Source of the DNA: Vicinamibacteria bacterium
GTDB lineage: Bacteria > Acidobacteriota > Vicinamibacteria > Fen-336
NCBI GenBank assembly: GCA_035570235.1
Contig: DATMML010000059.1
Span: forward strand, 1-58,708
DNA: 58,708 bases
Direction: 5' to 3'
Below the pieces are notes generated by a model. The model was not told the origin of the DNA and did no database searches. It saw nothing but the letters and a program-made list of their open reading frames with translations. Numbering within the stretch: position 1 is the first letter of the stretch; each line of letters begins with the position of its first letter. The position numbers and the translations under genes are program-made. Below are positions 9,248 to 37,305 of this stretch, one piece after another.

Positions 9248-9251
9248 TGGT

Positions 9252-9280
9252 ATTCTTGGCGCGCCCCTCCCGCGGGTCAA
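9252..9280 (-). promoter_or_regulatory. Candidate promoter for the aminotransferase gene
   Basis: Read on the minus strand, TTGACC (9280-9275) is followed after 17 bases by AAGAAT (9257-9252). Transcription would start at about the first ATG (9247), which would favour the second ATG at 9241 or leaderless translation. The -10 matches consensus at only four of six bases. Confidence 0.3.
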
Positions 9281-20905: not shown

Positions 20906-22561
20906 GTGGTGGTGGCCGTGGATAGCTCGATGGAGCTACGGCTCAAGAAGCTCATGGCCTTCCGGCTGGTCATGGTCACCACCCTCCTGCTCATCGCCTC
21001 CTACCTGGAAGCGGTGTCGGAGAACCTCCTCCCCGTCAACCCCCTGTACTTCCTGATCGCGGCCACCTACGTCCTCACCGTTTTCCACGCCCTGGCCCTG
21101 CGCTTCCTGACCGCCCTCAAGCCCCAGGTCTATAGCCAGGTGGTGTCGGACCTCCTGATCATCACCGGGCTCGTCTACACCACGGGGGGAGTGCGGGCGG
21201 GTTTCATACTCCTCTACCCCATCTCCGTGCTCTCCGGCAGCGTCCTTCTCCTCTCCCGACGCGGGGGCCTTCTCCTAGCCCTTCTCGCGACCCTCTTCTA
21301 CGCCGGCACCTTGTGGGCGGTCCGGCTCGGGTTGGTCCCCCCGCAGGGTCTTTCCGACGTCCCCTTCCTTTCCGCTAAGGCGCTCTTCTATTCCATCTTC
21401 GTCACGGGGGTGGCCTGCGGGACGGTGGCCCTCATCGGCTCCTATTTGGCGGAGAGCCTCCGCCATGCGGGAGAGAGGCTCGAGGAGGCGGTGGAGGAGG
21501 TGGCCGACCTCCGCGGGCTGAACGAGGTCATCGTAGACAGCATCCACAGCGGCCTCCTCACCGTGGACGGAGGGGGGCACATTCTGCACGTCAACACTTT
21601 CGGGGAGCACGTGTTGGGGCGGCGGCGGGGGGAGATCCGCGGCCGCCTTCTCCGCGAGATCCTCGGTTCCTGGTTCTTCGATCCCCCCGCCCTCCACGCC
21701 CGCGCCGCCGACCGAAAGCTGGCGCGGCTGGAGTTCGACTACGAGCGTCCGGACGGCACGACGTTTGTCCTCGGGGTATCGGTCTCGCCCCTGTCCTCCG
21801 GGGAGCGGGAGAGCGGGGGCTTTCTACTCGTCTTCCAGGATCTCACCGAGATCAAGCGGCTCGAGCAGGAGGCCCGGATCAATGAAAAACTGGCTGCGGT
21901 CGGGGAAATGGCCGCCCACTTGGCCCATGAGATCCGCAACCCGCTGGGCTCGATCAGCGGCTCGGCCCAGGTTCTGCTGGCGGAGCGGGGGTTTTCTCCC
22001 GAGCAGGAGAGGCTGCTATCCATCATCACCCGTGAGTCCAAGCGCCTCTCGGACGCCCTGAACCAATTTCTCTTCCAGGCCAAGAGCTCCTCGGAGCGCT
22101 CGGGCCCGGTGGACATCCGTCCGGTTGTCGCGGAGGCCGTGACCCTGCTCCGCAACGGTCCGGAGGTCGGTCTCCAGAGGGTGGTGGAGTTCGTCTCGGA
22201 TGAAGGCCCCCTCCTCTGCTTGGCGGACCGCGACCAGATCGCTCAGGTCTTCTGGAACCTCGCACGAAACGGACTCGAAGCGATGCCCGAAGGGGGCGTT
22301 CTGAAGGTGACCCTGCGACGCTCGGAGGACGAGGTCGTCCTCTCCGTACGAGATCAGGGCCGAGGAATGGGCCGGGAGGAGCAGCGACGTTTGTTCCAGC
22401 CCTTCCAGTCCGGAAGCCGGGTGGGCACGGGCCTCGGTCTCGCCATCGTCTATCGGATCGTCCGCGAGCACGGGGGGGACATCGTGGTGCGCAGCTTTCC
22501 CTCCTTCGGGACGGAGGTCGAAGTTCGCCTGCCCCTGGTGTCGGCCACGGTACAGGCTTGA
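20906..22561 (+). CDS. pilS: Sensor histidine kinase PilS
   Basis: 551 residues. Six N-terminal membrane helices (about 20 to 190) match the PilS topology that senses pilin in the inner membrane. A PAS domain (about 205 to 315, GLLTVDGGGHILHVNTFGE) is followed by the phospho-accepting histidine in HLAHEIRNPLGSI (His about 341). The ATPase lobe has N, G1 and G2 boxes: FWNLARNGLEA, DQGRGMG and GTGLGLAIV. GTG at 20906 gives the longest form; ATG at 20930 is an equally plausible start. The stop overlaps the next start as TTGA. It would phosphorylate PilR, although a YfhO-like gene separates the two. Confidence 0.93.
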   Translation: MVVAVDSSMELRLKKLMAFRLVMVTTLLLIASYLEAVSENLLPVNPLYFLIAATYVLTVFHALALRFLTALKPQVYSQVVSDLLIITGLVYTTGGVRAGFILLYPISVLSGSVLLLSRRGGLLLALLATLFYAGTLWAVRLGLVPPQGLSDVPFLSAKALFYSIFVTGVACGTVALIGSYLAESLRHAGERLEEAVEEVADLRGLNEVIVDSIHSGLLTVDGGGHILHVNTFGEHVLGRRRGEIRGRLLREILGSWFFDPPALHARAADRKLARLEFDYERPDGTTFVLGVSVSPLSSGERESGGFLLVFQDLTEIKRLEQEARINEKLAAVGEMAAHLAHEIRNPLGSISGSAQVLLAERGFSPEQERLLSIITRESKRLSDALNQFLFQAKSSSERSGPVDIRPVVAEAVTLLRNGPEVGLQRVVEFVSDEGPLLCLADRDQIAQVFWNLARNGLEAMPEGGVLKVTLRRSEDEVVLSVRDQGRGMGREEQRRLFQPFQSGSRVGTGLGLAIVYRIVREHGGDIVVRSFPSFGTEVEVRLPLVSATVQA

Positions 22562-24987
22562 GGGGAGCGCGGCTTCGCCCGGCGACGGGGGACCTCCTCG
22601 CCGTGGCGGGCCTGCTCCTGGTCGTGGTCGCGGTCTTCTCCCAGGCGGTCTTCACCTCCGCTGTCTTCTATCAGCGCGACATCTATACCTACTGGTATCC
22701 GCACATCGAGGTCTTCGTGCGCGCGGTGTCGGAGGGCGCCTGGCCGCTCTGGAACGCCTACGTCGGGTTCGGCGGTCCTCTTCTGGCCGACGCGAGTGTC
22801 CAGGTCGCTTACCCCCTGACCTGGCTGAACCTCATCATGTTCCCGGCCGCCTACTACAAGCTCTTCGTGCTCCTTCACGTCTGGGCCGCGGGGGTGGGGC
22901 TGTACTTCCTGGGCCGCCGCTGGGGTTGGACGGAGGCCTCCTCATTTCTGGCCGCGACGGTGTGGGCGCTATCGGGGCCTCTCCTGTCCGCGGTCAGCCT
23001 CTTCCACCATTTTGCGGGGGCAGCCTGGATCACCTGGGTGTTGCTGGCCCTGGAAGGGCTGCTCGCCAAGCCCTCGGGGCGGGCCGCGATCCTCCTGGGG
23101 GCGGCGGGAGCGGGCCAGATCCTAGCCGGCTCCGGTGACATGTGCCTGATGACGGGGATGGCGGTCGGCCTGCGGCTCTTGGTCGTCGCGATCCACGACC
23201 CGCGAGCGGCCGTAGCACGGCTCCCGCGGGGAATTCGTCTGGCCGCCCTCTCCGCCGCCCTCGCCCTGAGCCTCAGCGCGATCCAGTGGTGGCCCACGCT
23301 GGAGGTCGTCCGCTCCGGTTCGCGTCCGAAACAGCCCCCCAGCACGAGCATGTACTGGTCTGTGCACCCGGCCACGATCGTGGACATGCTCGTGCCCCGC
23401 CTCGTCAGCGATCTACCCCTCACGCCGGAGCTGCGCGCCGCCCTCTTCGAGTCCCGGGAGCCGTTGCTGGCCTGTCTGTATCTGGGCCTGTCCTCGGCTT
23501 TCCTGGTGGGGGTCGGGCTTCTCTTGGGGGGACCCCTGCGGATTCTCGGCGGACTGGGCTTCGCTTGGTTTCTGGCTGCGGCCCTCGGTCACTACACACC
23601 CTTATATCCGCTCCTTCTTCGGGTGCCCGGCATCGGCCTCCTACGCTATCCGGCGAAATACGCGATTCCCACCGCGCTCTTCTGGGCGCTCTTGGTGGGC
23701 GTGGGGGCGGAAGCCTGGCGCCGTGCATGGACACCGGTGGAGAAGCGTCGCGGCCTCGGATTGGGCAGTCTGTTCTGGCTATTGGGGCTGGCACTTCTCC
23801 TGGCCGCGCTCTGGATCGAGCGCGAACCGGCGCAACTCGATCGGCTCTGGCCATGGAGCTCGGCCATCGCGACGCCGCTTCTCGGGGAGGCCGTGGCTTC
23901 AAAGCTTTTGGGAGCGGGAACCCTTGCCTTTCTGGTCAGCCTCCTGGCGTGGGCCCGGACCCGCCGATCCCTCCCCCCGCAATGGCTGACCGCCGGCTTA
24001 ACGCTCCTGGTTGCGGGTGACCTGGGGTGGGTGGGTCGGAGCGTCAACTCCCTGGGCCCCCCCGAGCTACTCTCCTTCCGACCGCCCCTCGTGGATCGCC
24101 TGCGCGTCGCCCCCGACTACCGGATCTACGTGGCGACCTTTCCCGAAGAGTGCGCGCGGCTGGTCCGTGGCCCCCAGGGGTGGGACCCGAACTGGAGCTG
24201 GGCTCGAGGCACCGAGGAGATGCTTTATCCGCCGATCGGGGCGCGCTGGGGGCTCTTCGGCAGCTACGACGGCGACTTCTCGGGCTTGGCGCCGGCGGCG
24301 TTTTGGCCCGTGACCGCGCTCATGCGCAGCACCGAACTGACGTCGGCGGGACTCCGCCTTCTCCAGATCGGCAACGTGGGGCACGTGGTTTCGGTGGGGG
24401 AACGCGACCTGGCCGGCCTCACGCCCTTGCTCGGGGAGCCCTCGGCCTTTGCGTGTCCCCTGCGGCTCTTTCGCGTACCCGAGCCGCTGCCCCGCGCTTA
24501 TGTGGTGGGGGGCGTGCGATCGCTATCCGACGCGGAGGCGCTGACCCTGCTTCTCGATCCCGCTTTTGACCCCGCCCGAGAGGTCTTGTTGCCTCCGGGG
24601 AACGCGACCTCCGGTGCCACCCCGGGTTCGCAAGGGAGCGCACAGTTCGTCTGGCGCCGGGCGGACGCGCTCGAGCTGGAAGTGGAGGCGAGCGCCCCCG
24701 CCATGCTCGTCCTAGTCGAAGCGTTCGGCCCGGGCTGGCGGGCCACCGTCGATGGGCAGCCGGTGGAGGTCCTGAAGGCAAACCTCCTCTTCCGGGCGGT
24801 TCGGGTCCCCGCCGGCCGGCACCGCGTGGGCTTCCGCTACCGGCCGCCTTCCGTGCTCCGCGGAGCGGCGCTTTCCGTCGCGGGGCTGCTGGCCGGGGTG
24901 ACGGTGTGGCGGGCGCAGGGTCGCGGACGCGGCCCCAGGGTTGAGGCGGGCCCCCTCCTGGGGATAGGATCAGAGCCCCCAGCATGA
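22558..24987 (+). CDS. YfhO-family membrane protein embedded between pilS and pilR
   Basis: 809 residues; GT-C-like. After the first helix it carries YQRDIYTYWYPH, the same acidic R-D loop as the other YfhO proteins in the window. About thirteen helices follow, then a soluble part ending VEAFGPGWRATVDG, the family hallmark. Start is TTG at 22558, overlapping the pilS stop by four bases (TTGA), so translation is probably coupled to the kinase. The next gene, pilR, begins ten bases after its stop. Being locked into the two-component operon suggests a role tied to pili, perhaps pilin or surface glycosylation; this is inference from position only. Confidence 0.88.
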   Translation: MRGARLRPATGDLLAVAGLLLVVVAVFSQAVFTSAVFYQRDIYTYWYPHIEVFVRAVSEGAWPLWNAYVGFGGPLLADASVQVAYPLTWLNLIMFPAAYYKLFVLLHVWAAGVGLYFLGRRWGWTEASSFLAATVWALSGPLLSAVSLFHHFAGAAWITWVLLALEGLLAKPSGRAAILLGAAGAGQILAGSGDMCLMTGMAVGLRLLVVAIHDPRAAVARLPRGIRLAALSAALALSLSAIQWWPTLEVVRSGSRPKQPPSTSMYWSVHPATIVDMLVPRLVSDLPLTPELRAALFESREPLLACLYLGLSSAFLVGVGLLLGGPLRILGGLGFAWFLAAALGHYTPLYPLLLRVPGIGLLRYPAKYAIPTALFWALLVGVGAEAWRRAWTPVEKRRGLGLGSLFWLLGLALLLAALWIEREPAQLDRLWPWSSAIATPLLGEAVASKLLGAGTLAFLVSLLAWARTRRSLPPQWLTAGLTLLVAGDLGWVGRSVNSLGPPELLSFRPPLVDRLRVAPDYRIYVATFPEECARLVRGPQGWDPNWSWARGTEEMLYPPIGARWGLFGSYDGDFSGLAPAAFWPVTALMRSTELTSAGLRLLQIGNVGHVVSVGERDLAGLTPLLGEPSAFACPLRLFRVPEPLPRAYVVGGVRSLSDAEALTLLLDPAFDPAREVLLPPGNATSGATPGSQGSAQFVWRRADALELEVEASAPAMLVLVEAFGPGWRATVDGQPVEVLKANLLFRAVRVPAGRHRVGFRYRPPSVLRGAALSVAGLLAGVTVWRAQGRGRGPRVEAGPLLGIGSEPPA

Positions 24988-26407: not shown

Positions 26408-26477
26408 ACCACCGCAACACATCTAGTCCAGTTGATTCAATCACTTACGGGTCCTGCTAGTGGGCACTGTCCTTGCA
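26391..26477 (+). promoter_or_regulatory. Sigma-54 promoter of pilin 1 with IHF-like site and upstream TGTC motif
   Basis: The -24/-12 element is GGGCAC-N5-TTGCA at 26462-26477, one base from the TGGCAC-N5-TTGCA consensus, with GG and GC exactly ten bases apart. An IHF-like site (consensus WATCAA-N4-TTR) lies at 26435-26447, with one mismatch (ATTCAA for AATCAA), inside TTGATTCAA-N2-ACTTACGG. AAAATGTC at 26390-26397, within the end of pilR, resembles the TGTC core of PilR sites in Pseudomonas. Transcription should start near 26488, about 31 bases before the ATG. Confidence 0.82.
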
Positions 26478-26518
26478 GTGTTGGGGGTTGGCTGTTCGCC
26501 ATGTTCGAAAGGAGAACA

Positions 26519-27061
26519 ATGACTAAGAGGGAATCAGGGTTTACCCTGATCGAGCTGTTGATCGTTGTCGCGATTATCGGAATTATCGCGGCGATCGCCA
26601 TCCCCAGCTTGCTCAGGGCTCGCGTATCCGCTAACGAGTCGGCGACGATCGGCGACACACGGACGGTCATCTCCGCTCAGGCGGCTTATCAGTCGTCCAA
26701 CGCGGGGTTCTACGATGGTAAGTTGACGTGTCTGGTGAAGCCCAGCGGCGGTTGCATCCCCAGCTATCCGACCAACGCACCGACGTTCATCGACAGTCAG
26801 ATCGCCGCCGTGACCCCCAAGTCGGGTTACACCCGAAGCTACAACCCGAGCGCAGTGCCGGCTCCATTGCCGCCGACGGCCTCGCCGACAAGCGCGGCCG
26901 CTTACGTCTACGGCTCTACGCCTGTGAGCGTCGGGCAGACGGGCGTTCGAGGTTTCATGGGTGATTCCAGCGGGTTGCTGTGCTACACACCGTCGGGCGG
27001 GATGCCTGGACAGGTGGCCGGCCCCGGGATAGACATCACCACCTGCACGCCCCTCCAGTAA
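26519..27061 (+). CDS. pilA: Type IV pilin 1 (major-pilin-like)
   Basis: 180 residues with a seven-residue leader MTKRESG cut before F by PilD. The mature protein has the invariant Glu5 (FTLIELL) and the N-terminal alpha-1 helix. The globular part has four cysteines (mature positions 64, 72, 148, 169), enough for two disulfides, and a Pro/Ser/Thr-rich segment (APLPPTASPTS) that could be surface exposed or O-glycosylated. ATG at 26519 was chosen because GGAG lies five bases before it and it gives a standard leader; the frame upstream covers the promoter. It is transcribed from the sigma-54 promoter immediately upstream and ends at a strong hairpin. Confidence 0.95.
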   Translation: MTKRESGFTLIELLIVVAIIGIIAAIAIPSLLRARVSANESATIGDTRTVISAQAAYQSSNAGFYDGKLTCLVKPSGGCIPSYPTNAPTFIDSQIAAVTPKSGYTRSYNPSAVPAPLPPTASPTSAAAYVYGSTPVSVGQTGVRGFMGDSSGLLCYTPSGGMPGQVAGPGIDITTCTPLQ

Positions 27062-27085
27062 GCGGGGGCGCTCACCAGTTCACAA

Positions 27086-27115
27086 AGAGGGAGGGGTTCA
27101 GACGCCCCTCCCTCT
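27086..27115 (+). terminator. Hairpin terminator after pilin 1
   Basis: AGAGGGAGGGG (27086-27096) pairs perfectly with CCCCTCCCTCT (27105-27115) around an eight-base loop, 11 base pairs. There is no clear U tract after it, so termination may be incomplete, which matters for pilin 2 downstream. Confidence 0.7.
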
Positions 27116-27158
27116 CATTCGGGCTCGCTAGGCCCAGTTCCGGGCCATGGGGAAGGTT

Positions 27159-27752
27159 ATGTCCTGGCTAGCCGCGGACGACGACGCCCTCCACAATTTC
27201 AAGCTGCGCACCGTCACCGCGGAGACGGGTTTCACCCTCATCGAGCTCTTGATCGTGGTTGCGATCATCGGGATCATCGCGGCAATCGCCATCCCCAGCT
27301 TGCTCCGGGCGCGCGTGTCCGCAAACGAGGCGGCGACGATCGGCGACATCCGGACCGTCATCTCTTCTCAATCGGCTTATCAATCCTCGAATGGCGGCTT
27401 CTACGAGGGCAAGTTGACCTGCCTCGTGCAGCCCAGTGGCGGGTGTATCCCCAGCTATCCGACCAACGCGCCGACGTTCCTGGACAGCCAGATCGCCGCT
27501 TTCACGTTCAAGACCGGTTACACCCGTAGTTTTGTCGCCGGGCCGGTTCCTGCTCCGCTGCCCCCCACCTCCTCACCCTCCAGCTCCACCGGCTTCACCT
27601 ACTTCGGTACTCCGCTCGTCGTCGGTCAGAGTGGGGTACGGGGCTTTGGGGGCGATTCCAGCGGACTGGTGTGCTATACCCCTTCGGGAGCAGCGCCGGC
27701 GGTGCTGGCCAACGGCACGCTTAACGTCGCGAGCTGCATCCCCCTTCAGTAG
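27159..27752 (+). CDS. Type IV pilin 2, diverged, with unusually long leader and no sigma-54 promoter
   Basis: 197 residues from the ATG at 27159 (201 from the ATG at 27147). The leader to the cleavage site ETG/FTLIELL would be 24 or 28 residues and includes MSWLAADDDALHNFK, far longer than the six to eight residues of the other three. The mature part is exactly the same length (173) with all four cysteines conserved, but differs strongly from mature residue about 90 onward (for example FTFKTGYTRSFVAGPV). The gap from the pilin 1 stop contains no -24/-12 element or IHF-like site. GGGGAAGG lies just before the 27159 ATG. It may be read through from pilin 1, act as a minor pilin, or be poorly expressed. 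Confidence 0.85.
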   Translation: MSWLAADDDALHNFKLRTVTAETGFTLIELLIVVAIIGIIAAIAIPSLLRARVSANEAATIGDIRTVISSQSAYQSSNGGFYEGKLTCLVQPSGGCIPSYPTNAPTFLDSQIAAFTFKTGYTRSFVAGPVPAPLPPTSSPSSSTGFTYFGTPLVVGQSGVRGFGGDSSGLVCYTPSGAAPAVLANGTLNVASCIPLQ

Positions 27753-27801
27753 GCCGTCGTCATGCCGCGACTTGGCAGGTGGAGACCCCTGCCCTGGCCA
27801 C

Positions 27802-27889
27802 AAATTGTCATGGCCCTGAGTTCCGAAATTCGGCGCGGCTTCGTTGAATCAACAACTTACGGCTCTGGTTGAGGGGCATTGTCTTTGCA
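27802..27889 (+). promoter_or_regulatory. Sigma-54 promoter of pilin 3 with IHF-like site and upstream TGTC motif
   Basis: The -24/-12 element is GGGCAT-N5-TTGCA at 27874-27889. A perfect IHF-like site, AATCAA-N4-TTA, lies at 27847-27859 within TTGAATCAA-N2-ACTTACGG. AAATTGTC is at 27802-27809. All distances equal those of the pilin 1 promoter: TGTC to the box, box to -24, and -24 to -12. Confidence 0.85.
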
Positions 27890-27935
27890 AAGCGGGAGTT
27901 CGTGCTATGCGGCATTTTCAGAGAAGGAGGTACCA

Positions 27936-28475
27936 GTGAAGAAGGAAACAGGATTCACTCTGATCGAGCTGTTGATCGTTGTCGCGATCATCGGGATTAT
28001 CGCGGCGATCGCCATCCCCAGCTTGCTCAGGGCTCGCGTATCCGCCAACGAGTCGGCGACGATCGGCGACACACGAACGGTCATCTCCGCTCAGGCGGCC
28101 TACCAGTCGTCCAACGCGGGGTTCTACGATGGGAAGTTGACGTGCTTGGTGAAGCCCAGCGGTGGTTGCATCCCTAGCTATCCGACCAACGCGCCAACGT
28201 TCATCGACAGCCAGATCGCCTCCGCAACCCCCAAATCGGGTTACTCACGAAGCTATAACCCAAGCGCGGTGCCGGCTCCTCTGCCCCCGACGGCCTCGCC
28301 GACCAGCGCTGCTGCCTACACGTACGGCGCTACCCCGGTGAACGTCGGGCAGACGGGCGTCCGGGGCTTCATGGGCGATTCGAGCGGCCTGCTGTGCTAC
28401 ACACCGTCGGGCGGGATGCCTGGCCAGTTGGCCGGCCCCGGGATAGACATCACCACCTGCACGCCCCTCCAGTAA
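27936..28475 (+). CDS. pilA: Type IV pilin 3 (near-identical to pilin 1)
   Basis: 179 residues. Start is GTG at 27936, chosen because a perfect AAGGAGG lies five bases upstream and it yields a six-residue leader ending ETG/FTLIELL. The mature part (173 residues) differs from pilin 1 at seven positions by my count, all after residue 88 (for example A to S and V to A at 90-91, V to T and S to A near 123 to 126). The four cysteines and the Pro/Ser/Thr segment are kept. It has its own sigma-54 promoter and ends at a strong hairpin, so it is an independent transcription unit. Confidence 0.95.
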   Translation: MKKETGFTLIELLIVVAIIGIIAAIAIPSLLRARVSANESATIGDTRTVISAQAAYQSSNAGFYDGKLTCLVKPSGGCIPSYPTNAPTFIDSQIASATPKSGYSRSYNPSAVPAPLPPTASPTSAAAYTYGATPVNVGQTGVRGFMGDSSGLLCYTPSGGMPGQLAGPGIDITTCTPLQ

Positions 28476-28496
28476 GCGGGCGCCACCAGTCCAAAA

Positions 28497-28531
28497 AAGG
28501 GAGGGAGGGGGCTCACACCCCTCCCTCCCTT
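28497..28531 (+). terminator. Strong hairpin terminator after pilin 3
   Basis: A 14-base-pair perfect stem, AAGGGAGGGAGGGG (28497-28510) with CCCCTCCCTCCCTT (28518-28531), around a seven-base loop. An A tract precedes the stem and only two T follow. It resembles the pilin 1 terminator, extended by one GGGA unit. Confidence 0.78.
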
Positions 28532-28604
28532 CCAACGCCAGCCCGGCCCACCCAGGGCTGGCTCAGCCAGCCACCGAAAATCGGTGTGTTTACTGCCTCG
28601 TCAA

Positions 28605-28692
28605 AAAATGTCACAATCGTGGCGCCGCTCGCCATATCAGGTCGCTGCGAATCAATGACTTACGGGCATCCTCCGCGGGCATTGTCCTTGCA
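28605..28692 (+). promoter_or_regulatory. Sigma-54 promoter of pilin 4 with IHF-like site and upstream TGTC motif
   Basis: The -24/-12 element is GGGCAT-N5-TTGCA at 28677-28692. A perfect IHF-like site, AATCAA-N4-TTA, lies at 28650-28662, followed in register by ACTTACGG. AAAATGTC is at 28605-28612. Spacings are identical to the other two pilin promoters, although the DNA between the elements is not conserved. Confidence 0.85.
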
Positions 28693-28735
28693 GGAGTCAG
28701 AGGTCGTGCTGGTCGCCAGCCTGAAAAGGAGCGCA

Positions 28736-29281
28736 ATGAGGAAGAAGAGGGAAGCAGGGTTCACCTTGATCGAGCTGTTGATCGTCGTCGCGATTATCGG
28801 AATTATTGCGGCGATCGCCATCCCCAGCTTGCTCAGGGCTCGCGTATCCGCCAACGAGTCGGCGACGATCGGCGACACACGGACGCTCATCTCCGCTCAG
28901 GCGGCTTACCAGTCGTCCAACGCGGGCTTCTACGATGGTAAGTTGACGTGTCTGGTGAAGCCCAGCGGCGGTTGCATCCCCAGCTATCCGAGCAACGCGC
29001 CGACGTTCATCGACAGTCAGATCGCGGCCGTGACCCCCAAGTCGGGTTACACCCGAAGCTATAACCCGAGCGCAGTGCCGGCTCCATTGCCCCCGACGGC
29101 CTCGCCGACAAGCGCTGCCGCTTACGTCTACGGCGCTACGCCTGTGAGCGTCGGGCAGACGGGCGTTCGAGGTTTCATGGGTGATTCCAGCGGGTTGCTG
29201 TGCTACACCCCGTCGGGCGCGATGCCCGGACAGGTGGCCGGCCCCGGGATCAACATCACCACCTGCACGCCCCTCCAGTAA
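28736..29281 (+). CDS. pilA: Type IV pilin 4 (near-identical to pilin 1)
   Basis: 181 residues. ATG at 28736, preceded by AAAAGGAG, gives the leader MRKKREAG cut before FTLIELL. The mature 173 residues differ from pilin 1 at five positions by my count (mature 43 V to L, 78 T to S, 126 S to A, 154 G to A, 165 D to N). Four cysteines are conserved. It has its own complete sigma-54 promoter. No clear terminator follows; only a weak G/C hairpin lies just after the stop. Confidence 0.95.
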   Translation: MRKKREAGFTLIELLIVVAIIGIIAAIAIPSLLRARVSANESATIGDTRTLISAQAAYQSSNAGFYDGKLTCLVKPSGGCIPSYPSNAPTFIDSQIAAVTPKSGYTRSYNPSAVPAPLPPTASPTSAAAYVYGATPVSVGQTGVRGFMGDSSGLLCYTPSGAMPGQVAGPGINITTCTPLQ

Positions 29282-29640: not shown

Positions 29641-30570
29641 ATGGCTGAACGGAGGTCGATCGCGAGCATACCCCTCGTTTGCCCAAGCTGCCGGGCCTCT
29701 CTCACCTACCCCCAAGCCGGAGACGTGGAGTGCGGCCACTGCAGGGCCCGTTTCGCGCAGAAGGACGGCATCCTACGCCTCGTTTCGGGGGCCAATGCCA
29801 CTCCGGGCTTTGACCCCCACTACTTCCCGTTGCTCTCCCAAGTAGAAAAGGAGCACTTCTGGTTCGTTGTCCGGCGCGAGGTGATCCTGGATGCCCTGAC
29901 GCGAACCGTCCCCGACCTTCGAAGCCGGCCCCTCTTCGACATCGGTTGCGGAAGCGGGGGCTTGCTGGCTTTCCTCTCCGAGGCCGGGGTCCCCGTTGCG
30001 GGGGCCTGCGATGCCTATCTGGAAGGGCTTCAACTTGCGCGTGAGCGGATCGACCTGCCTTTTTTCCTCGTGGACGAGGGACGGCTCCCTCCGTTGGGGC
30101 CCGGCCAGCCGATGATCGGGATGTTCGACGTCCTCGAGCATATTGATGACGATCAAGGGACCCTGGACTGGGTGGCTTCCGTACTCGAGCCGGGAGGCGC
30201 CCTGGTGCTCACCGTGCCCGCCCACCCCTTCCTTTTCGATGAGACGGATGAGATCGCTCATCATCGCCGCCGCTACCGGCGGCGGGAACTTCGCGAGAAG
30301 CTGGAAAAGGCGGGCCTCCAGACCCAGCTCATCAGTCATTTCATGGCCACCCTCGTCCCCATGCTGGTGGTGCTGCGCTGGCTGGGACGCCGACTCCGGG
30401 GCGGGAGGCAGGCGGTCATGGAGCGGCGGAGTGCGGAGCTCTCCATCGTGCCCGTCCTCAACGACCTGCTGCGCACGATCCTTCGCCTGGAGCGTTACTG
30501 GTTGCGGATGCTTCCCTTGCCCTTCGGGTCGTCTCTGGTGGCGATAGCCACGCGACCTGCCGAACGATGA
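29641..30570 (+). CDS. SAM-dependent methyltransferase with N-terminal zinc ribbon
   Basis: 309 residues. The N-terminus has a Trm112-like zinc ribbon, CPSC and CGHC (about 18 to 45), ending in the typical DGILRLV. A class I methyltransferase domain follows with motif I LFDIGCGSGGLLAFL (about 98 to 112) and the post-motif MFDVLEHIDDD. The region after residue 220 has a hydrophobic helix (FMATLVPMLVVLRWLG), suggesting membrane association. It belongs to the broad group that methylates sugars or lipid carriers in surface-glycan clusters. ATG at 29641; weak ribosome site (GGCTGGCCGGC). The substrate is unknown. Confidence 0.82.
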   Translation: MAERRSIASIPLVCPSCRASLTYPQAGDVECGHCRARFAQKDGILRLVSGANATPGFDPHYFPLLSQVEKEHFWFVVRREVILDALTRTVPDLRSRPLFDIGCGSGGLLAFLSEAGVPVAGACDAYLEGLQLARERIDLPFFLVDEGRLPPLGPGQPMIGMFDVLEHIDDDQGTLDWVASVLEPGGALVLTVPAHPFLFDETDEIAHHRRRYRRRELREKLEKAGLQTQLISHFMATLVPMLVVLRWLGRRLRGGRQAVMERRSAELSIVPVLNDLLRTILRLERYWLRMLPLPFGSSLVAIATRPAER

Positions 30571-30711
30571 CGACCTTGGGGGTCACGAGAGCGGGTTCGG
30601 CGCACGATCTGGGCGTCGGCGAACGGTGGGCCCGGAACCCGCCCGGAGCGGAGCATCCTTCCCCCGCCGCCCGCCCGTCGGGCATTGCGGGCGGAAAGGC
30701 GGCCGGCTAGC

Positions 30712-31437
30712 ATGTCCGCGGGGGGTGGGACCGGCACCTCTGTTAAGTGCGTTATTCTGCAGCCCTCATACATCCCCTGGCGTGGCTACTTCCATCAGAT
30801 TCACAAGGCCAACGTCTTCATGTTCTTCGACGATGTCCAGTATGACCAGCGGGGCTGGCGCAACCGCAACCGGGTCAAGACGGCGAAAGGAGTGCAGTGG
30901 CTCACCGTCCCCGTGCTGAAGCGGGGGCTCCGCGCCGAACAAACCCCGATCCGGGACGTCAGGATGTGCTGGGACCGCCCCTGGGCGCACAGTCACTGGA
31001 CGACCCTCCTCCACGCGTACGGGCGGGCCCCCTACTTCAAGAAATACGCCCCCTTGGTCGAGTCGTTCTACCGTCGGCGCGACGAGTTCCTCGCCGACTT
31101 CACGATCGACACCACCGTAGCCCTGGCTCGGGAGCTGGGCATCCAGCACACGCGCTTCCTACGCTCGACGGAACTCAAGGTTTCCGGCACCAAGACGGAC
31201 CGGCTCCTCGCCCTTCTGAGCGAGGTTGGTGCGGATCACTACATCAGTGGGCCCTCCGCCCGCGACTACATCGACGAAGAGAAGGTGCGGGCCGCCGGCG
31301 TCACTCTGGAGTACATGAGCTACGAGTACCCTGCCTACGAGCAATTGCACCCGCCCTACGACCCCTACGTCTCGTTGCTCGACCTGCTCTTCATGAAGGG
31401 GCCGGAGGCGCCGCGGTACATCTGGGGCGATGAGTGA
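30712..31437 (+). CDS. WbqC-family protein
   Basis: 241 residues. Recognised by the family opening ILQPSYIPWRGYFHQIHKAN, with FFDDVQYDQRGWRNRNRVK, then TVPV and the C-terminal YPAYEQLHPPYDPYVSLLDLLF. WbqC-like proteins are found in O-antigen and sugar-modification loci; their chemistry is not settled. The ATG at 30712 was chosen over a TTG at 30685 because the family core starts shortly after. It overlaps the GT2 gene by eight bases, so the two are coupled. Together with the downstream ATP-grasp enzyme and methyltransferases, it suggests transfer of an amino acid or acyl group to an amino sugar. Confidence 0.88.
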   Translation: MSAGGGTGTSVKCVILQPSYIPWRGYFHQIHKANVFMFFDDVQYDQRGWRNRNRVKTAKGVQWLTVPVLKRGLRAEQTPIRDVRMCWDRPWAHSHWTTLLHAYGRAPYFKKYAPLVESFYRRRDEFLADFTIDTTVALARELGIQHTRFLRSTELKVSGTKTDRLLALLSEVGADHYISGPSARDYIDEEKVRAAGVTLEYMSYEYPAYEQLHPPYDPYVSLLDLLFMKGPEAPRYIWGDE

Positions 31438-32425
31438 GGCGGAATTGACGGAGCCAGAGATCGCCGGCCGCGCTCCGGAGTTGAGCATCGTGACCACCCT
31501 CTACCGCTCCGAGGCGACGGTCACGGAGTTCCACCGCCGGGCGGTGGCCGCGGGGGAGGCTCTCCGCAGGTCCTTCGAGATCGTGTTCGTGGATGACGGC
31601 TCCCCCGATGGGTCCGCCGAGATCGCGAGGGGGATCCAGCGCCTGGACCCCCGGGTGGTCCTGGTGGAGCTCTCGCGCAACTTCGGGCACCACCCGGCCG
31701 CGGTCGCGGGGCTGCGCTACGCGCGGGGAGAGAGGATCTTCATCCTGGACGTCGACCTCGAGGAGCAACCCGAATGGCTCTCCGACTTTGCCGCGGAGTT
31801 CGACCGCCGGGGGGCGGATGTGGTCTTCGGGGTGAGCACCAACCGCAAGGGCAGCGCCTTGAAGAGGTACGCGGGAGCCGTCTTCTGGAAGCTCTTCAAC
31901 GTTCTTTCCGATACCCATGTTCCCGAGAACCCTTGCACGATCAGGCTCATGAGCCGGAAATACGTGGACGCCCTCCTCACCCTTCCGGAGAGAAACCTGT
32001 TCCTGGCCGGTAGCTATGCCTGGCTCGGCTTCACGCAGGTGCCCTATCCGGTCGAAAAGGGCCAGCGATCCACGCCCTCCACATATACGCCCTCCCGCTT
32101 GATCGGCCTCTTCGTGGAAGCCATAACCTCCTTCACCAGCTACCCCCTGCGGCTGATCTTCCTCGTCGGGGTGGGGATCGCGGCCACCGCCCTCCTCGCC
32201 GGCCTGACCCTGACCGCCTGGAAGCTGCTTCGCCCGGAGGCGATCTCCATGGGCTGGCCCTCGCTCATGGTCTCCATCTGGTTCCTGGGGGGCGTCATCA
32301 TCGCTTTCCTGGGGGTCATCGGGCTCTACTTGTCCAAGGTCTTCAACGAGACCAAGAGCCGGCCCCTCTACGTTGTGCGCCGGGTAGAGCGCCAGACGGG
32401 AGCCCCCTCCCCTGGGAAGGGGTGA
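31430..32425 (+). CDS. GT2 polyprenyl-phosphate sugar synthase (CsbB/ArnC/DPM1-like)
   Basis: 331 residues. The GT-A core has LSIVTTLYRSEATV, VFVDDGSPDGS, LSRNFGHHPAAVAGL and the metal-binding DVD in FILDVDLEEQPE. Two C-terminal membrane helices (about 228 to 255 and 275 to 305) place it with enzymes that transfer a sugar from a nucleotide donor to undecaprenyl phosphate. CsbB of Bacillus subtilis has this form and supplies YfhO. Four YfhO-type proteins are in this window, including one at 34897, so it may feed one or more of them. It overlaps the WbqC gene by eight bases and is followed immediately by the next methyltransferase. Confidence 0.9.
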   Translation: MSEAELTEPEIAGRAPELSIVTTLYRSEATVTEFHRRAVAAGEALRRSFEIVFVDDGSPDGSAEIARGIQRLDPRVVLVELSRNFGHHPAAVAGLRYARGERIFILDVDLEEQPEWLSDFAAEFDRRGADVVFGVSTNRKGSALKRYAGAVFWKLFNVLSDTHVPENPCTIRLMSRKYVDALLTLPERNLFLAGSYAWLGFTQVPYPVEKGQRSTPSTYTPSRLIGLFVEAITSFTSYPLRLIFLVGVGIAATALLAGLTLTAWKLLRPEAISMGWPSLMVSIWFLGGVIIAFLGVIGLYLSKVFNETKSRPLYVVRRVERQTGAPSPGKG

Positions 32426-33181
32426 TTGCCGGCGGACATGGGGAAGCACGAGCTCGACCAGTTCGGAGGCGCGTACGGTCCCGCGTTCAGGTTCCACGAA
32501 GAGAACCTCTGGATGCTCTCGTGGTACGCGGAGCGGATGGTGCGGGCGCTGGAGACGCAGAACACGCGTTCCCTCGTCAGCCTGGGCATCGGCCACCAGG
32601 TGGTCAGCGGGGCCATCCTCAAGTCGCTGGGGCGAGGCCTCCGTGAGTACACGATCGTGGAGGGCTCCCCGGCGAGCATCCAAAAGTTTCGGGAGAGCAC
32701 GCCCTTGCCGCCGAACGCGGCCGTGGTCAACGCCCTTTTCGAGGAGTACGAGCCCGCTTCCCCCGTGGACGCGGTGGAGATGGGCTTTGTCCTCGAACAC
32801 GTGGAAGACCCCCTGCTCGTCCTCCGCCGCTACGCGCGCTTTCTGAAGCCGCCCGGCACCATCATCATTGTCGTGCCCAACGCCCGGTCCCTGCATCGGA
32901 TGCTGGGGAACGCGGCCGGTCTCCTCGACGACGTGCACCAGCTGAGCCCCTACGACCTCCAGCTCGGACACCGGCGGTACTTCGATCTCGACTCGATTAC
33001 CGCGCTGGTGAAGGATGCCGGGCTTCGGATACGAAGAACCGAGGGCGTCTTTCTGAAATGTCTGACCACCGCCCAACTGCAGGCCCTGGAGCTCAGCCCG
33101 GAGGTCCGGGAGGCGTTCTTCAGGGTCGGGGTCGCCTATCCCGAGATCTCGAACGCGATCTATCTCGAGACCAGCCTTTGA
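32426..33181 (+). CDS. Class I methyltransferase-like protein
   Basis: 251 residues. Post-motif features are clear: AVEMGFVLEHVEDPLLVL, FLKPPGTIIIVVPNARSLH, then the late HRRYFDLDSITALVKDAGL found in glycan-cluster methyltransferases. Motif I is unusual: SLGIGHQVVS instead of the G-x-G-x-G form, so SAM binding is less certain than in its neighbours. The TTG at 32426, directly after the TGA of the GT2 gene and with GGAAGGGG upstream, gives the longest form; ATG at 32438 is the alternative. It probably modifies the same glycan as the flanking genes. Confidence 0.8.
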   Translation: MPADMGKHELDQFGGAYGPAFRFHEENLWMLSWYAERMVRALETQNTRSLVSLGIGHQVVSGAILKSLGRGLREYTIVEGSPASIQKFRESTPLPPNAAVVNALFEEYEPASPVDAVEMGFVLEHVEDPLLVLRRYARFLKPPGTIIIVVPNARSLHRMLGNAAGLLDDVHQLSPYDLQLGHRRYFDLDSITALVKDAGLRIRRTEGVFLKCLTTAQLQALELSPEVREAFFRVGVAYPEISNAIYLETSL

Positions 33182-33225
33182 AGGAGAGGGGAGGCGGGGG
33201 GGGAGCTCCAGAAGCTGGGGAAGGC

Positions 33226-34908
33226 ATGTTCTCCGCCCTGGTCGTGTCGGGCGGAGGATTCCAGGGCCTGGGCTTGATCCGCTGCCTCCGCGAGTCGGCC
33301 GCCGTCCGGGTTGTGCTCGCGGATTGTTTTGAGGAGAGCATCAGCCGGTATTTTGCGGACAGCTTCCATCCGGTACCGCGGATCGCCGACACCCAGAACT
33401 TCTTGGCCGCGCTCCTCGGCATTTGCGAGAGGGAAGGGGTACGTATCGTCCTTCCCTCCACCCAGCATGAGCTCCTAGCTCTGGCCGAGGGCCGGCAGCC
33501 CTTCGCGGCGCGGGGAGTCTTTGTGGGGGTGTCGGATCCCGGCTTCTTGCGGCTGGCCGGGAACAAGCGCGAGCTCTACGAGTTTCTCGGCGGGGCGGGG
33601 CTGCCCACCCTGCCCGTCGTCGATTTGCGCCGGGAGGCCCGCCCCTTTCCGCTGATCGGGCGGCCGATTGCGGGGTGGGGCAGCCGGGGGACCCTGGTGC
33701 TGCGGTCGGAGCGGGACCTCGAGGGCCGGGAGGTGGACGAGGTCGCAGAGAGCCACCTTTGGCAGCCCTATCTGGAGCGGTTCGAAGAGCTGTCGGTGGA
33801 CTTCGCTCTCGACGGCGCGGGCGAGGACTCTGGATTCGGCGTACGGCGAAGGGCTCGCACTTCGGGGGGGTTCGCGGTGATCAGCGAGACCGCGGAAGAC
33901 CCCGCGGTGGAGACGCTGATGCGGCGGTTCACGGAGCTTGTGAAGACCAAGGGAGCCCGGGGGCTCTTCAACGTCCAGCTCATCCGGGAGCGGGGGAAGC
34001 TCTATTTCTCGGATGTCAACCCGCGGATCGGCACTTCGGCTGTGCACTGGTGTGGGACGGGCTTCAACCCCGCCCTCCATCTTTGCGGTTTCGTGGATCG
34101 TCGGCTCCGGGAAGGCCTGCGCCCGCCCCCGTCTTCGGGCCGGCGGATGGTGCGCTACCTGGATCAGTTCTGGATCGACCCCGTGTCGGCCGCGGTCGAG
34201 CCGGCAAGAGCGGTCGTTTTCGACGTGGACGACACCCTTATCCACCACAAGAGGTGGATCCTCGGCAAGCTGGAGCGCCTCCACGAGGCCTTCCCCGACG
34301 AGCTGCCGGAGCGGGGGCTTTTTCTCTTGGAGGCGGCCCGGCTCGTGGAAGAGGGCCCCCGCGCCCAGCTCTTCGACGAGCTGAAGGCACGCTTCGCGCT
34401 GGGACCCGACCTCACAGCCCAGCTGGTTCAACTCTATCGAGCGAGCGTCCCCCACCATCCTCCGGTTTTCCCGGACGTGGCGCCAACCCTGGCAAGCTTG
34501 AAGCGGAGCGGTCTCAAGCTCGCCGTCCTGACCGACAACCCTCCGGAGTCCCAGCGGCTGAAGCTCGAGGCGTCGGGTCTCTCGGCTTGGTTTGACGTCG
34601 TGGTCTACTCGCGGGAGGCGGGGGCAGAGAAGCCGAGCCCGGAGGGCTTCGCGGTGGTCGCGGAGCGCTTGGGGATCCCGGCCCGGGCCTTGGTCATGGT
34701 GGGGGACAATCCCTACCGGGACGTCCTGGGCGCGGCTCGGGCGGGCTACGGCGCTTGCTACCTGCTGCGCCGGGCGGGCGGATTCTTCAACTTCGATCCT
34801 TCGATCTTCAAAGAGCTCTCCGAGGACGGCCCAGAGTTCCGGGTCATTGACACCCTGCAGGGCCTCCTTCCCTTTCTGGGGGCGTCGCCGGCCGGCCTAT
34901 CGGGATAG
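33226..34908 (+). CDS. ATP-grasp ligase fused to HAD-type phosphatase
   Basis: 560 residues. Residues 1 to about 320 are an ATP-grasp protein of the CarB/PylC type: N-terminal SALVVSGGGFQGLGLIRCL, GNKRELYEFLGGAGLPTLP, and the metal-binding end YFSDVNPRIGTSAVHW. Residues about 328 to 550 are a HAD hydrolase: catalytic VVFDVDDTLIHH, the threonine in LAVLTDNPPES, the lysine in AEKPSPEGF, and MVGDNPYRDV. ATP-grasp enzymes join a carboxylate to an amine through an acyl-phosphate; the HAD part may remove a phosphate from the product. The ATG at 33226 is used; the frame upstream only overlaps the previous gene. Its end overlaps the convergent YfhO gene by 12 bases. Confidence 0.87.
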   Translation: MFSALVVSGGGFQGLGLIRCLRESAAVRVVLADCFEESISRYFADSFHPVPRIADTQNFLAALLGICEREGVRIVLPSTQHELLALAEGRQPFAARGVFVGVSDPGFLRLAGNKRELYEFLGGAGLPTLPVVDLRREARPFPLIGRPIAGWGSRGTLVLRSERDLEGREVDEVAESHLWQPYLERFEELSVDFALDGAGEDSGFGVRRRARTSGGFAVISETAEDPAVETLMRRFTELVKTKGARGLFNVQLIRERGKLYFSDVNPRIGTSAVHWCGTGFNPALHLCGFVDRRLREGLRPPPSSGRRMVRYLDQFWIDPVSAAVEPARAVVFDVDDTLIHHKRWILGKLERLHEAFPDELPERGLFLLEAARLVEEGPRAQLFDELKARFALGPDLTAQLVQLYRASVPHHPPVFPDVAPTLASLKRSGLKLAVLTDNPPESQRLKLEASGLSAWFDVVVYSREAGAEKPSPEGFAVVAERLGIPARALVMVGDNPYRDVLGAARAGYGACYLLRRAGGFFNFDPSIFKELSEDGPEFRVIDTLQGLLPFLGASPAGLSG

Positions 34909-37305
34909 GTCCGGGCGGATCCCCGACGGCGGTCCTGCCTCCGGCGCCGGGGGTCGGGAGGACGATGGCCGCCATCCGAGGAAGGCAATGACCAGGGCCG
35001 CGGCCAGGCCCACCGCCAGCCCCCTCCGGAGAGAGGGGGGCCGATAGGTCATCACCACGTGACTCTGGCCCGCCGGTATGGCCACCGCTCGGTACCGTCC
35101 GTTGGCCCGGAGGACGGGGACCGCAGAGCCGGCCACCGTTGCCGTCCAACCAGGCGCGTATCCATCCCGGACCACGACCATCGTCGGACGGTCGGCCTCG
35201 GTCTCCATGACGATCTGCTCCGAGGATTCCTGGATGGAGAGTATGCGGCCCTCCGCCTGGGGCGTCTCGAGTCCCCTCCCTTCCACCGCTACCGCCCCCT
35301 CGATTTGCAGGCCGGGCCCGCGCGCCCACTGCTCCGCTTCCTCCCGCGTACTCGAGGGATGGACGCGGTGAGCCACGAAGCGCAAGGGGAGAGGGTCCCG
35401 CACCGAGTACAGATGGATCTCCAGGGGCCTAATGGCTTCGGGGGCCAGGAGCGCGCGTGGCTCGAGCGCCGGATGCTCGAGGGGGTCGAGGCTGAGGACG
35501 TGGGCGACTCCCGCCTCTCGCAGCCGGTCGATGATTCCGGGAAGGAAGAAACAGCCTTCGGCCTGAGGTGAGAGAGCCCGGTCCACGGGCACGGACATCG
35601 TGAGATCGGGGCTCAAGGCCGTGGGGACGAGAAGCCGGAGGTTGAAGTTCGGAGTCAGGGTGTCCCGGAGGGTGGCGAAGGTCCAGATTTCGTGGTCCTC
35701 CGGCCTTTCCGCGCGGGCCCGAGGGTAGGCCGGGCTCTCTCCGACGTTGCACGTAAAGAGGCGTCCCCTTGCGCGCAGGAGGGGGGCCAGATCCGCGACC
35801 TGGGCACTCGGCTCGTAGAAGGCGGGCGTGACCATGGGGTTCAGGCCCGCGCCCGTCCGCAGCAGGTCGGCGGCGATGAGGGCGCCCGCGGCCAGGACGC
35901 CCTTAAGGGGGGCCAGCCGCTGGGTCAAGACCAACACGGCCAGGAGACCCGCGGCGAGCGACACCGACCCCCCGAGGGCCGCGTCGTGCAGAATCAGCCG
36001 CAGGCGGTCGACCCGGAGCGCCCAGGCGTAGTCGGGAGGGAAGAAGCCGCCGAGAAACCACCGGGCCCAGTCCGGCCGGGCCCAAGACACCGCGGGCAGG
36101 GCCACAAAAACGACCCCCAGCCCCCCCGCCAGTCCCGCCAGGGCCCGCCAGGCCCGCCGCTCTCCGCGAGCGAGGGCTTCGAGTCCGAGGGCGGTGAGGA
36201 GGGCCACCGCCAGATGAACAGTGAAGAAGGCCTTGCAAGGATAGCGCCCGCGGTGCAGAACGGGTACCGCCTCCACCAGGAGCCGAAGGCCCCCCCAGCG
36301 ACCCAAGCTCACGACGAGGGCCAGAAAGGCCAGGATCAGGATCCGGCCGCGATACGCCCGGCCGCAGAGCCCGCCCACCGCCGCCGCGCAGAGCGTGGCC
36401 AGCCCCAGGTAGAGGCTGAGCAGATAGGGAAACCCGAGGGGAAAGAAGTTCTGCCCCCACCAGTGGTTGGCCAAGTTGCCGAGGTCGCCGTAGAGATTTC
36501 CGATGACGACCTGTACGAGGGTCAGAGGGTGGATCGAGTGGGCGAGCACGACGTCGATCGGGAACCCCGCGCCGCGCGCGCTACCCTTCATCAGGTCGTT
36601 CATCAGCAGGAGGGTCGGTGCGGCCAGACCCCCTCCGAGGATCAGGGCCGATCCGATCCGCAGCCATCCCGGGCGCGGCCGAGAGGAGGCGGCGAGAACA
36701 AGGGCGAAGAGAAGAGCCTGCGCGACGACCTCGAGCGCGGTGGTGGAAAGAATGATGGCCACGAGCAGCGCCGCTCCCGCAACGTGCCGCGCAGAGCCCT
36801 GCGAAGCGCGGAGCAAGGCGAGGATGACAAGCGGAGCCCAGGCCACCGCGAGCAAGTAGGCGTAAAGGTTGAGGGCCGAGAGACAGAAGCCGCCCAGGGC
36901 GTAGACGATGCTGGCGCCGCCGGCTGCCGGTCGGGACAGGCCGAGACCGCGGGCCAGGGCCAGAAAGGCCAGGGCCGCGAGCGGAACATGGAGGGCGAGG
37001 AGCAGGGAGAAGCCGCGTTCGTCGGGGAGGAGGGCTTGGAGGAGGTCGAGGGGATAGGAGAGGGTGGGGACGGTGAGGGGAACTCCTTGGTGCACGAAGG
37101 GGTTCCAGAAGCGCAGCTCCAGGCCGCGTAGGCCCTCCACCGAATAACGGCGCAGGGGAAAGAAATGGAGCGACAGGTCTCGGAAGTAGAAGCTCCGGCC
37201 CGAGAGTACTCCCTGAACGAAGGGGAGAAAGGATACGCCGCCGACCACCGCGGCCGTCCCCACCCTGGAAAGGAGCGTCTCACCCTTGGGGAGTCGTGGA
37301 AGCAT
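34897..37305 (-). CDS. YfhO-family membrane protein (GT-C-like glycosyltransferase)
   Basis: 802 residues. The first loop has YFRDLSLHFFPL, and about twelve helices follow. The soluble C-terminal part ends with the hallmark DGYAPGWTATVAGSAVP. ATG at 37305. It is transcribed towards the glycan-modification group at 29.6-34.9 kb and overlaps the ATP-grasp-HAD gene by 12 bases at its 3' end. By analogy with YfhO of Bacillus subtilis, it could transfer a sugar made by the GT2 at 31430 onto an extracytoplasmic acceptor. Confidence 0.87.
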   Translation of the reverse strand: MLPRLPKGETLLSRVGTAAVVGGVSFLPFVQGVLSGRSFYFRDLSLHFFPLRRYSVEGLRGLELRFWNPFVHQGVPLTVPTLSYPLDLLQALLPDERGFSLLLALHVPLAALAFLALARGLGLSRPAAGGASIVYALGGFCLSALNLYAYLLAVAWAPLVILALLRASQGSARHVAGAALLVAIILSTTALEVVAQALLFALVLAASSRPRPGWLRIGSALILGGGLAAPTLLLMNDLMKGSARGAGFPIDVVLAHSIHPLTLVQVVIGNLYGDLGNLANHWWGQNFFPLGFPYLLSLYLGLATLCAAAVGGLCGRAYRGRILILAFLALVVSLGRWGGLRLLVEAVPVLHRGRYPCKAFFTVHLAVALLTALGLEALARGERRAWRALAGLAGGLGVVFVALPAVSWARPDWARWFLGGFFPPDYAWALRVDRLRLILHDAALGGSVSLAAGLLAVLVLTQRLAPLKGVLAAGALIAADLLRTGAGLNPMVTPAFYEPSAQVADLAPLLRARGRLFTCNVGESPAYPRARAERPEDHEIWTFATLRDTLTPNFNLRLLVPTALSPDLTMSVPVDRALSPQAEGCFFLPGIIDRLREAGVAHVLSLDPLEHPALEPRALLAPEAIRPLEIHLYSVRDPLPLRFVAHRVHPSSTREEAEQWARGPGLQIEGAVAVEGRGLETPQAEGRILSIQESSEQIVMETEADRPTMVVVRDGYAPGWTATVAGSAVPVLRANGRYRAVAIPAGQSHVVMTYRPPSLRRGLAVGLAAALVIAFLGWRPSSSRPPAPEAGPPSGIRPDLSR

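Follow-up and report, generated by a model that had tools for sequence, protein, structure and literature searches.

Why should a ligase and a phosphatase be joined in one polypeptide, at the end of a short run of sugar-modifying genes next to type IV pilins? The question is raised by a contig of a Vicinamibacteria bacterium from the Acidobacteriota (GenBank assembly GCA_035570235.1, contig DATMML010000059.1), whose 58,708 analysed nucleotides are called the window here. An earlier note on this DNA had claimed an ATP-grasp–HAD fusion beside a WbqC protein, a glycosyltransferase and two methyltransferases, with ligase and phosphatase taking sequential steps on one substrate. We find that the window protein is the only fused form seen in this analysis of an ATP-grasp/HAD pair that recurs as unfused neighbours in many genomes. 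We propose, with the balance about even between right and wrong, that it N-acylates a nucleotide-linked 4-amino-4,6-dideoxysugar as a bifunctional enzyme.

The fusion protein

The protein at issue is the following:

33226-34908, + strand: ATP-grasp–HAD-IA fusion of 560 aa (Pfam, NCBIfam, PDB relatives and residue conservation).

It is a single open frame of 560 aa, free of stops in an open reading frame (ORF) check. The ATP-grasp half (residues 1-281) contains a PylC-like_N match at residues 10-99 (E 4.5e-12; 46.4 bits against a Pfam cut-off of 27) and an ATP-grasp_3 match at residues 111-271 (E 1.4e-7; 32.2 bits against 23.2). The HAD-IA phosphatase half (residues 328-510) matches the HAD hydrolase family above the Pfam cut-off at residues 328-507 (E 1.3e-26), and TIGR01549 in NCBIfam with 48.8 bits, the cut-off being 23.3. 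No Bac_transf (phosphoglycosyltransferase) domain was matched in the fusion by Pfam at E 0.01.

In NCBIfam the N-terminal half scores best with NF009405 (PRK12767, ‘carbamoyl phosphate synthase-like’ ATP-grasp), at 102 bits. It misses the equivalog cut-offs both of this model (102.2 against 390) and of NF009402 (93.2 against 218). The PDB relatives of the fusion are 2pn1 and 4ygq, the former being the nearest solved chain for the N-terminal half and deposited as a carbamoyl phosphate synthase large subunit. The solved structures closest to the ATP-grasp profile are 2pn1, carbamoyl phosphate synthase and two amide-forming enzymes, PylC and the L-amino acid ligase BL00235.

Recurrence of the two halves as neighbours

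The full-length fusion has one copy in its own genome. No other was found in samples of 60 genomes, 396 genomes of the phylum and 193 genomes, with the best few candidates scored in each genome (three in the 396-genome sample, seven in the 193-genome sample), and viral contigs yielded no relatives. A candidate second fusion, H2 of Rhizobium gallicum, proved to be two overlapping ORFs.

A protein seen once, with no full-length relative in these samples, might have been joined by chance or by the assembly of one genome and be functionally meaningless. We regard this as very improbable, since the same two genes stand unfused and in the same order in other phyla, ATP-grasp then HAD, overlapping or 4 bp apart, so that the fusion joins known partners. 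Six of the 297 plasmid records for the fusion query were read, selected from those listed, and a directly adjacent unfused pair was found in those of Priestia, Haloarcula, Palleronia, Ensifer and Rhizobium gallicum; the Segatella record has two short glycosyltransferase ORFs separating the ATP-grasp and HAD genes. The best match within the class (G471) has an ATP-grasp gene overlapping its HAD gene.

A census centred on the ATP-grasp domain located 47 places, spread over 43 of the 396 phylum genomes, the window's own included. A same-strand HAD lies within 6 kb at 24 of the 46 other places; the HAD profile, seeded with the window HAD and its matches from those loci, also detects ordinary HADs, so that this count means ‘a HAD’ and defines no subtype. 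Within the same distance there is a NeuB at 21/46 places and a DegT-type aminotransferase at 24/46. HAD directly downstream of ATP-grasp accounts for 8/46, and the order HAD-NeuB-ATP-grasp for 16/46. These counts are lower bounds, because some loci stop within 6 kb at the edge of a contig or of the fetched region. As controls, none of six other HADs of the genome carrying the fusion had an ATP-grasp gene within 1.5 kb on either side (a seventh was not fetched), and none of 12 weaker HAD loci in named genomes had one nearby, these being more distant HADs and two of the 12 loci short.

Because ATP-grasp and HAD genes neighbour each other in many genomes, by the census and by the plasmid records, the link between ligase and phosphatase looks functional rather than accidental, which supports this part of the earlier note. 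A literature search, whose matches were seen mostly as listings, gave no account of what the pair does. It is this recurrent pair, present in glycan loci of bacteria and of an archaeon, more than the single fusion, that is the interesting object.

Loci of the unfused pairs

The unfused pairs of Priestia, three Alphaproteobacteria and Haloarcula are found mostly in loci with 4-aminosugar genes. A PF02397 phosphoglycosyltransferase shares the locus with the pair in L082, L083, L094, L106 and L110. Loci L083 and L113 contain a PglF-like Polysacc_synt_2 dehydratase. Locus L083 (genome G181) runs in the order phosphoglycosyltransferase, WbqC, PIG-L, methyltransferase, ATP-grasp, HAD, DegT aminotransferase and dehydratase, which is the window's combination of WbqC, methyltransferase, ATP-grasp and HAD in unfused form. 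A PIG-L-type deacetylase gene adjoins WbqC in L083, L117 and L176, and one was also seen by eye within the ATP-grasp/HAD locus L082. In the three Alphaproteobacteria a formyltransferase-like gene comes directly before the pair (L112 by Pfam, L113 by annotation, L114 by eye).

A second setting, seen in this phylum, is the nonulosonate cluster. Clusters with HAD, NeuB and ATP-grasp genes, mostly together with PseG and SpsF-like genes and many of them beside flagellin, are L040-L045, L047, L095, L096, L099, L100, L107, L152, L154, L157, L167 and L169. At a contig edge, L046:1-2112 holds an ATP-grasp domain within a 704-aa frame that starts PseG-like, a possible PseG–ATP-grasp fusion.

The pair could accordingly serve nonulosonic (sialic-acid-like) sugars. 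The ATP-grasp enzyme would then modify what NeuB makes, or the precursor of it, the HAD would belong to that pathway too, and the copy in the window would be a relic or side branch of it. The frequency of HAD-NeuB-ATP-grasp and of NeuB in the census speaks for this, as do the flagellin genes found in 10 of the 12 HAD-NeuB-ATP-grasp loci checked (one of the 12, L047, lies outside the census). Against it, profiles of NeuB, PseG and SpsF matched none of the window ORFs, to which the search was limited, at E 1e-3, and the Priestia and Ensifer pair loci list no NeuB. Moreover, in a midpoint-rooted FastTree tree, for which 10 of the 54 rows were dropped as fragments or outliers, the window ATP-grasp lies outside the main nonulosonate clade. 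We consider this explanation quite unlikely. Both halves of the window protein have long branches close to L082 in the trees; the sister of the ATP-grasp half is L093, and that of the HAD half L089. The L093 sister is the second of two different ATP-grasp-like genes, which follow a DesI/VioA-like aminotransferase in L093:6488-10809 with an SDR-like ORF between them (the first ATP-grasp-like gene and the SDR-like ORF by eye).

The cassette around the fusion

The proposal of an N-acylation enzyme draws further on the genes next to the fusion, and on one aminotransferase elsewhere in the window:

29641-30570, + strand: MT1, a Methyltransf_23-type methyltransferase (Pfam, E 2.3e-14) with two N-terminal CxxC pairs (by eye), the first gene past the last pilin.
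30712-31437, + strand: WbqC family protein (PF08889, 252.3 bits against a cut-off of 21.3, E 5.9e-75).
31430-32425, + strand: family 2 glycosyltransferase (GT2) for polyprenyl phosphate, PgfS/ArnC/sll0501-like (Pfam, E 1e-26).
32426-33181, + strand: MT2, a Methyltransf_23-type methyltransferase (Pfam, E 2.7e-14).
34897-37305, - strand: YfhO-type membrane protein, putative GT-C glycosyltransferase, convergent with the fusion (PF09586 on the C-terminal part).
8102-9280, - strand: RffA/WecE-type dTDP-4-amino-4,6-dideoxygalactose transaminase (NF008687, 457.9 bits against a cut-off of 375).

The five genes MT1-WbqC-GT2-MT2-fusion span 29641-34908, all on the + strand and closely packed. With gene starts picked by eye, MT1 and WbqC are 141 bp apart, WbqC and GT2 overlap by 8 bp, GT2 and MT2 abut, and 44 bp separate MT2 from the fusion, which overlaps the convergent YfhO-type gene by 12 bp. 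The G+C content of the cassette (0.673) offers no contrast with that of the window (0.675). Pfam and the ORFs agree with the earlier note on the fusion, its coordinates and domains, the WbqC protein and the two methyltransferases; the note had given coordinates for the fusion only. Its label ‘CsbB-like’ for the GT2 is fair: the best curated models are PgfS (174.4 bits, cut-off 500) and ArnC (139.6 bits, cut-off 529), both missed, and the best solved relatives are the glycosyltransferase sll0501 and ArnC. The WbqC protein has no credible solved relative (best E 0.51), and the titles and abstracts from the literature search give no account of the family's function; glycyl transfer to an amino sugar, as in the Pfam family note on wbnG, is a possible activity. 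The RffA falls below TIGR02379 (388.2 against 434.85) and is the only protein of its genome above the NF008687 cut-off.

The five-gene set was rejected as a conserved unit as far as it was searched for, the cross-genome queries being the fusion, MT2, WbqC and one YfhO protein. MT2 had matches at E<=1e-10 in 3/60 genomes and WbqC in 7/60, the own genome included in both counts; in G031 an MT2 relative (31% identity) adjoins WbqC. Nothing in the material searched repeats the exact set, but both halves of it are recurrent modules: besides the combination in G181, WbqC followed by GT2 is found in G047, where a methyltransferase gene comes next, and in Azospirillum, Rhizobium and Peteryoungia. Among the 63 plasmid records matching WbqC, ten annotated loci were read, selected from those listed. 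Eight of the ten have a DegT or RffA aminotransferase with WbqC (L117 and L172 have none), and in Azospirillum brasilense, Rhizobium Q54 and Peteryoungia the genes for WbqC, GT2, a methyltransferase and an acetyltransferase are contiguous, the last being of the hexapeptide type by Pfam in A. brasilense and Rhizobium Q54.

The cassettes of Azospirillum, Rhizobium and Peteryoungia are like the window in the order WbqC then GT2, with GT2s 41-48% identical to that of the window; the range is 41-49% when G047 is counted (L116, L170, L172, L101). RffA is nearby in the Azospirillum and two Rhizobium WbqC loci, and the RffAs of L116, L171 and L175 are 46-48% identical to their window counterpart at 8102-9280. 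The cassettes differ in having another methyltransferase family in third place and a hexapeptide acyltransferase in fourth, where the window has the ATP-grasp–HAD fusion. MT2 was rejected as an orthologue of the cassette methyltransferases, with no BLASTP match at 1e-3 to those of L116, L170, L171, L172, L175 or L101. By these resemblances, the window joins a WbqC-GT2-RffA scheme with an ATP-grasp/HAD module, which, judged from position only, would occupy the slot of the acyltransferase.

The pilus setting and the origin of the cassette

Upstream of the cassette lie pilus genes, with a YfhO-type gene among them:

26432-29281, + strand: four type IV pilin-like genes, tandem and very similar, directly upstream of the cassette (ORFs; N_methyl PF07963 on the one scanned).
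22558-24987, + strand: YfhO-type membrane protein between PilS and PilR (PF09586 on the C-terminal part).

T2SSE-type ATPases at 16.6-19.6 kb are consistent with PilB and PilT, and PilC, PilS and PilR were assigned by eye. The window has four YfhO-like proteins, at 1.2, 22.6, 34.9 and 41.6 kb. A YfhO-type protein stands between PilS and PilR also in six family genomes (L193, L194, L195, L200, L215, L216, out of 24 YfhO loci checked), inverted in L195 (G003). Since it keeps this place, it suggests a pilus-linked glycosyltransferase of its family.

The junction downstream of the pilins was examined in five of the thirteen family genomes (G003, G005, G007, G011, G013), in each of which two or three pilin-like genes were matched. 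In four of the five, the ABC gene found at 37.5 kb in the window comes directly after the pilins; in G007 one sulfatase-like ORF (by eye; L217:7317-9284) lies between. The genes from MT1 to the fusion had no match at the junction in any of the five (tblastn, E 1e-8), so that, for the five-gene set at this site, the neighbourhood is not conserved in relatives, one of the two outcomes that the earlier note had named as refuting it. Because five family genomes lack the cassette at this junction, it looks as if it was gained there as a unit; its loss in the relatives is a possible alternative. The junction may be an insertion-prone site, since a different ORF holds it in G007.

It may thus be that the chemistry proposed here is right in kind, the pilin site being a mere landing place, and that the glycan decorated is an exopolysaccharide or a lipid-linked surface glycan and not pilin. 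The WbqC-GT2 and ATP-grasp/HAD plasmid loci, which list sugar genes and no pilin in the stretches read, point that way, as does the different ORF in G007; a YfhO-type protein in the PilS-PilR interval, both of the window and of six family genomes, points back to the pilus. We give a non-pilin acceptor somewhat less than an even chance, part of which it shares with the proposal of an N-acylation enzyme, as the two overlap.

Proposed function and its weighing

In the proposed N-acylation scheme, RffA would be the source of an amino sugar of the dTDP-Fuc4N type. The ATP-grasp half would activate a carboxylic acid with ATP and form an amide on the amino group of the sugar, while the HAD half would dephosphorylate either the acid, ahead of ligation, or the finished product. 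WbqC and the methyltransferases would decorate the same group, the GT2 (which resembles ArnC, an enzyme named for a 4-formamido sugar) would load the sugar onto polyprenyl phosphate, and the YfhO-type GT-C protein would hand it on to an acceptor at the cell surface, which could be the adjacent type IV pilins. We infer what the substrate, acyl donor and acceptor are, in what order the steps follow, and that genes so scattered act jointly. The coupling of a HAD phosphatase to an amide ligase among aminosugar genes hints at an acid or amide that carries phosphate; phosphoglycerate as the donor is a guess, and an unlikely one. The compact sugar route of the earlier note, in which an amino acid or similar group would be added and then methylated, is right in outline, with its chemistry unproven: amino-sugar surroundings are seen in the RffA above its cut-off and in the genes for an aminotransferase, a dehydratase or a phosphoglycosyltransferase that accompany unfused pairs.

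The phosphatase half keeps its machinery. Asp333, Asp335 (the two motif-I aspartates), Thr337, Lys446, Lys469 and Asp499 are invariant across 33 HAD sequences, and Asp494 is present in 32/33; the window has them all and, with Thr436, shows the DxD, Thr/Ser, Lys and acidic motif IV all in place. Loss of HAD catalytic residues in homologues, which the earlier note had named as a refutation, was therefore not seen.

Several observations weigh against the N-acylation proposal. Ser407 of the window replaces a His found in 30/33 HADs. Counted over all 54 ATP-grasp rows, divergent proteins of other loci included, the window has Arg146 for Lys (51/54), Asn113 for Asp (52/54), Arg185 for Gly (51/54) and Gln80 for Asp (48/54). 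Of the conserved residues that bind nucleotide and metal, Lys114, Asn265 and Arg267 are unchanged, and those at 113, 146 and 263 differ. With near-invariant positions replaced, the ATP-grasp half may be altered or weak. The RffA gene lies 24 kb from the cassette on the opposite strand. No HAD was found at 22/46 ATP-grasp places, some nonulosonate clusters with ATP-grasp (L150, L159, L162) have none, and the HAD profile is as general as described above. Acyltransferases are listed in the Haloarcula and Palleronia pair loci and formyltransferases in those of Palleronia and Ensifer. The genome samples yielded no second fusion. Lastly, the AlphaFold2 single-sequence model of the fusion reached a pLDDT (predicted local distance difference test) of 37.6, and no claim is therefore made on its pocket or fold.

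The ATP-grasp substitutions allow another explanation, that this half has lost its ligase activity and survives as a remnant binding sugar or nucleotide, attached to a HAD phosphatase. The four replaced positions, the KP-motif lysine among them, and the long branch in the tree agree with it. Set against this, Lys114, Glu188, Arg209, Asn265 and Arg267 are kept, the change at position 263 (Glu to Asp) is conservative, the frame is intact over 281 residues, and carbamoyl phosphate synthase has arginines at the two lysine positions. An inactive ligase is thus unlikely, in our estimate.

A wider form of the N-acylation proposal would make ATP-grasp/HAD a bacterial and archaeal acylation module that replaces the coenzyme A-dependent N-acetyltransferases PglD and PseH on 4-aminosugars: a phosphorylated hydroxy or amino acid (for example 3-phosphoglycerate or phosphoserine) would be ligated and the amide then dephosphorylated, the window holding a one-polypeptide form acquired beside type IV pilins. 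Taken whole, we find this rather doubtful. PglD_N was absent near the pair in eight phylum genomes with ATP-grasp followed by HAD (G149, G181, G206, G272, G413, G355, G230, G406), and where it is present, in 5/10 genomes searched, the own genome included, it is always away from the pair. PseH above cut-off was found in none of the 21 genomes with ATP-grasp beside NeuB; weak matches in 8/21 are all on other contigs or distant from the cluster, and none falls inside the nonulosonate clusters of the genomes searched. PseH is in any case rare in the phylum, being above cut-off in 2/396 genomes (G081 and G117, neither in the ATP-grasp census list), so that its absence carries little power, a further point for the other side. 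An ATP-grasp enzyme in place of PseH or PglD is consistent with these results, and weakly so, the searches having covered phylum genomes; the acyl- and formyltransferases listed in plasmid pair loci speak against a replacement that is general.

If it is true that the module installs amides derived from phospho-acids, this would explain what HAD genes do in loci of the nonulosonate and PglC/E/F types, and hint at a route to the glyceramido-type sugars found on pili and flagella. In the natural fusion both activities are tied to a single substrate, and an assay needs only one protein.

Comparison with known systems

Among NCBIfam families the PRK12767 ATP-grasp proteins come closest to the N-terminal half; the window protein adds to them a HAD domain and altered conserved residues. 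ArnC, PgfS-PgfM1 and CsbB-YfhO resemble the window in having a polyprenyl-phosphate GT2 beside a YfhO-type protein, and differ in that the window GT2 is below the ArnC and PgfS cut-offs and that the window adds acid-decoration genes. The sfmABCDE operon of Shewanella has NeuB, a methyltransferase and an ATP-grasp gene together, and its flagellin glycan can carry methyl groups (PMC3765264). It thus shares with the window ATP-grasp and methyltransferase genes for a surface-filament glycan; its ATP-grasp is of the ATP-grasp_4 type, and there is no HAD and no WbqC among the five genes described.

The nearest known analogue in design would be PglB2 of Neisseria, which combines ATP-grasp with a phosphoglycosyltransferase and produces GATDH, the glyceramido sugar found on pilin (PMC11130364, PMC6959607, PMC4569582). 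ORF8 of Neisseria, a gene inserted along with pglB2, is a conceivable HAD. In PglB2 the ATP-grasp domain is fused to a phosphoglycosyltransferase and here to a HAD, and the window cassette has a GT2/YfhO pair where no phosphoglycosyltransferase was seen. A likeness lies in the unfused genes, with phosphoglycosyltransferase, ATP-grasp and HAD sharing the loci L110, L094 and L082.
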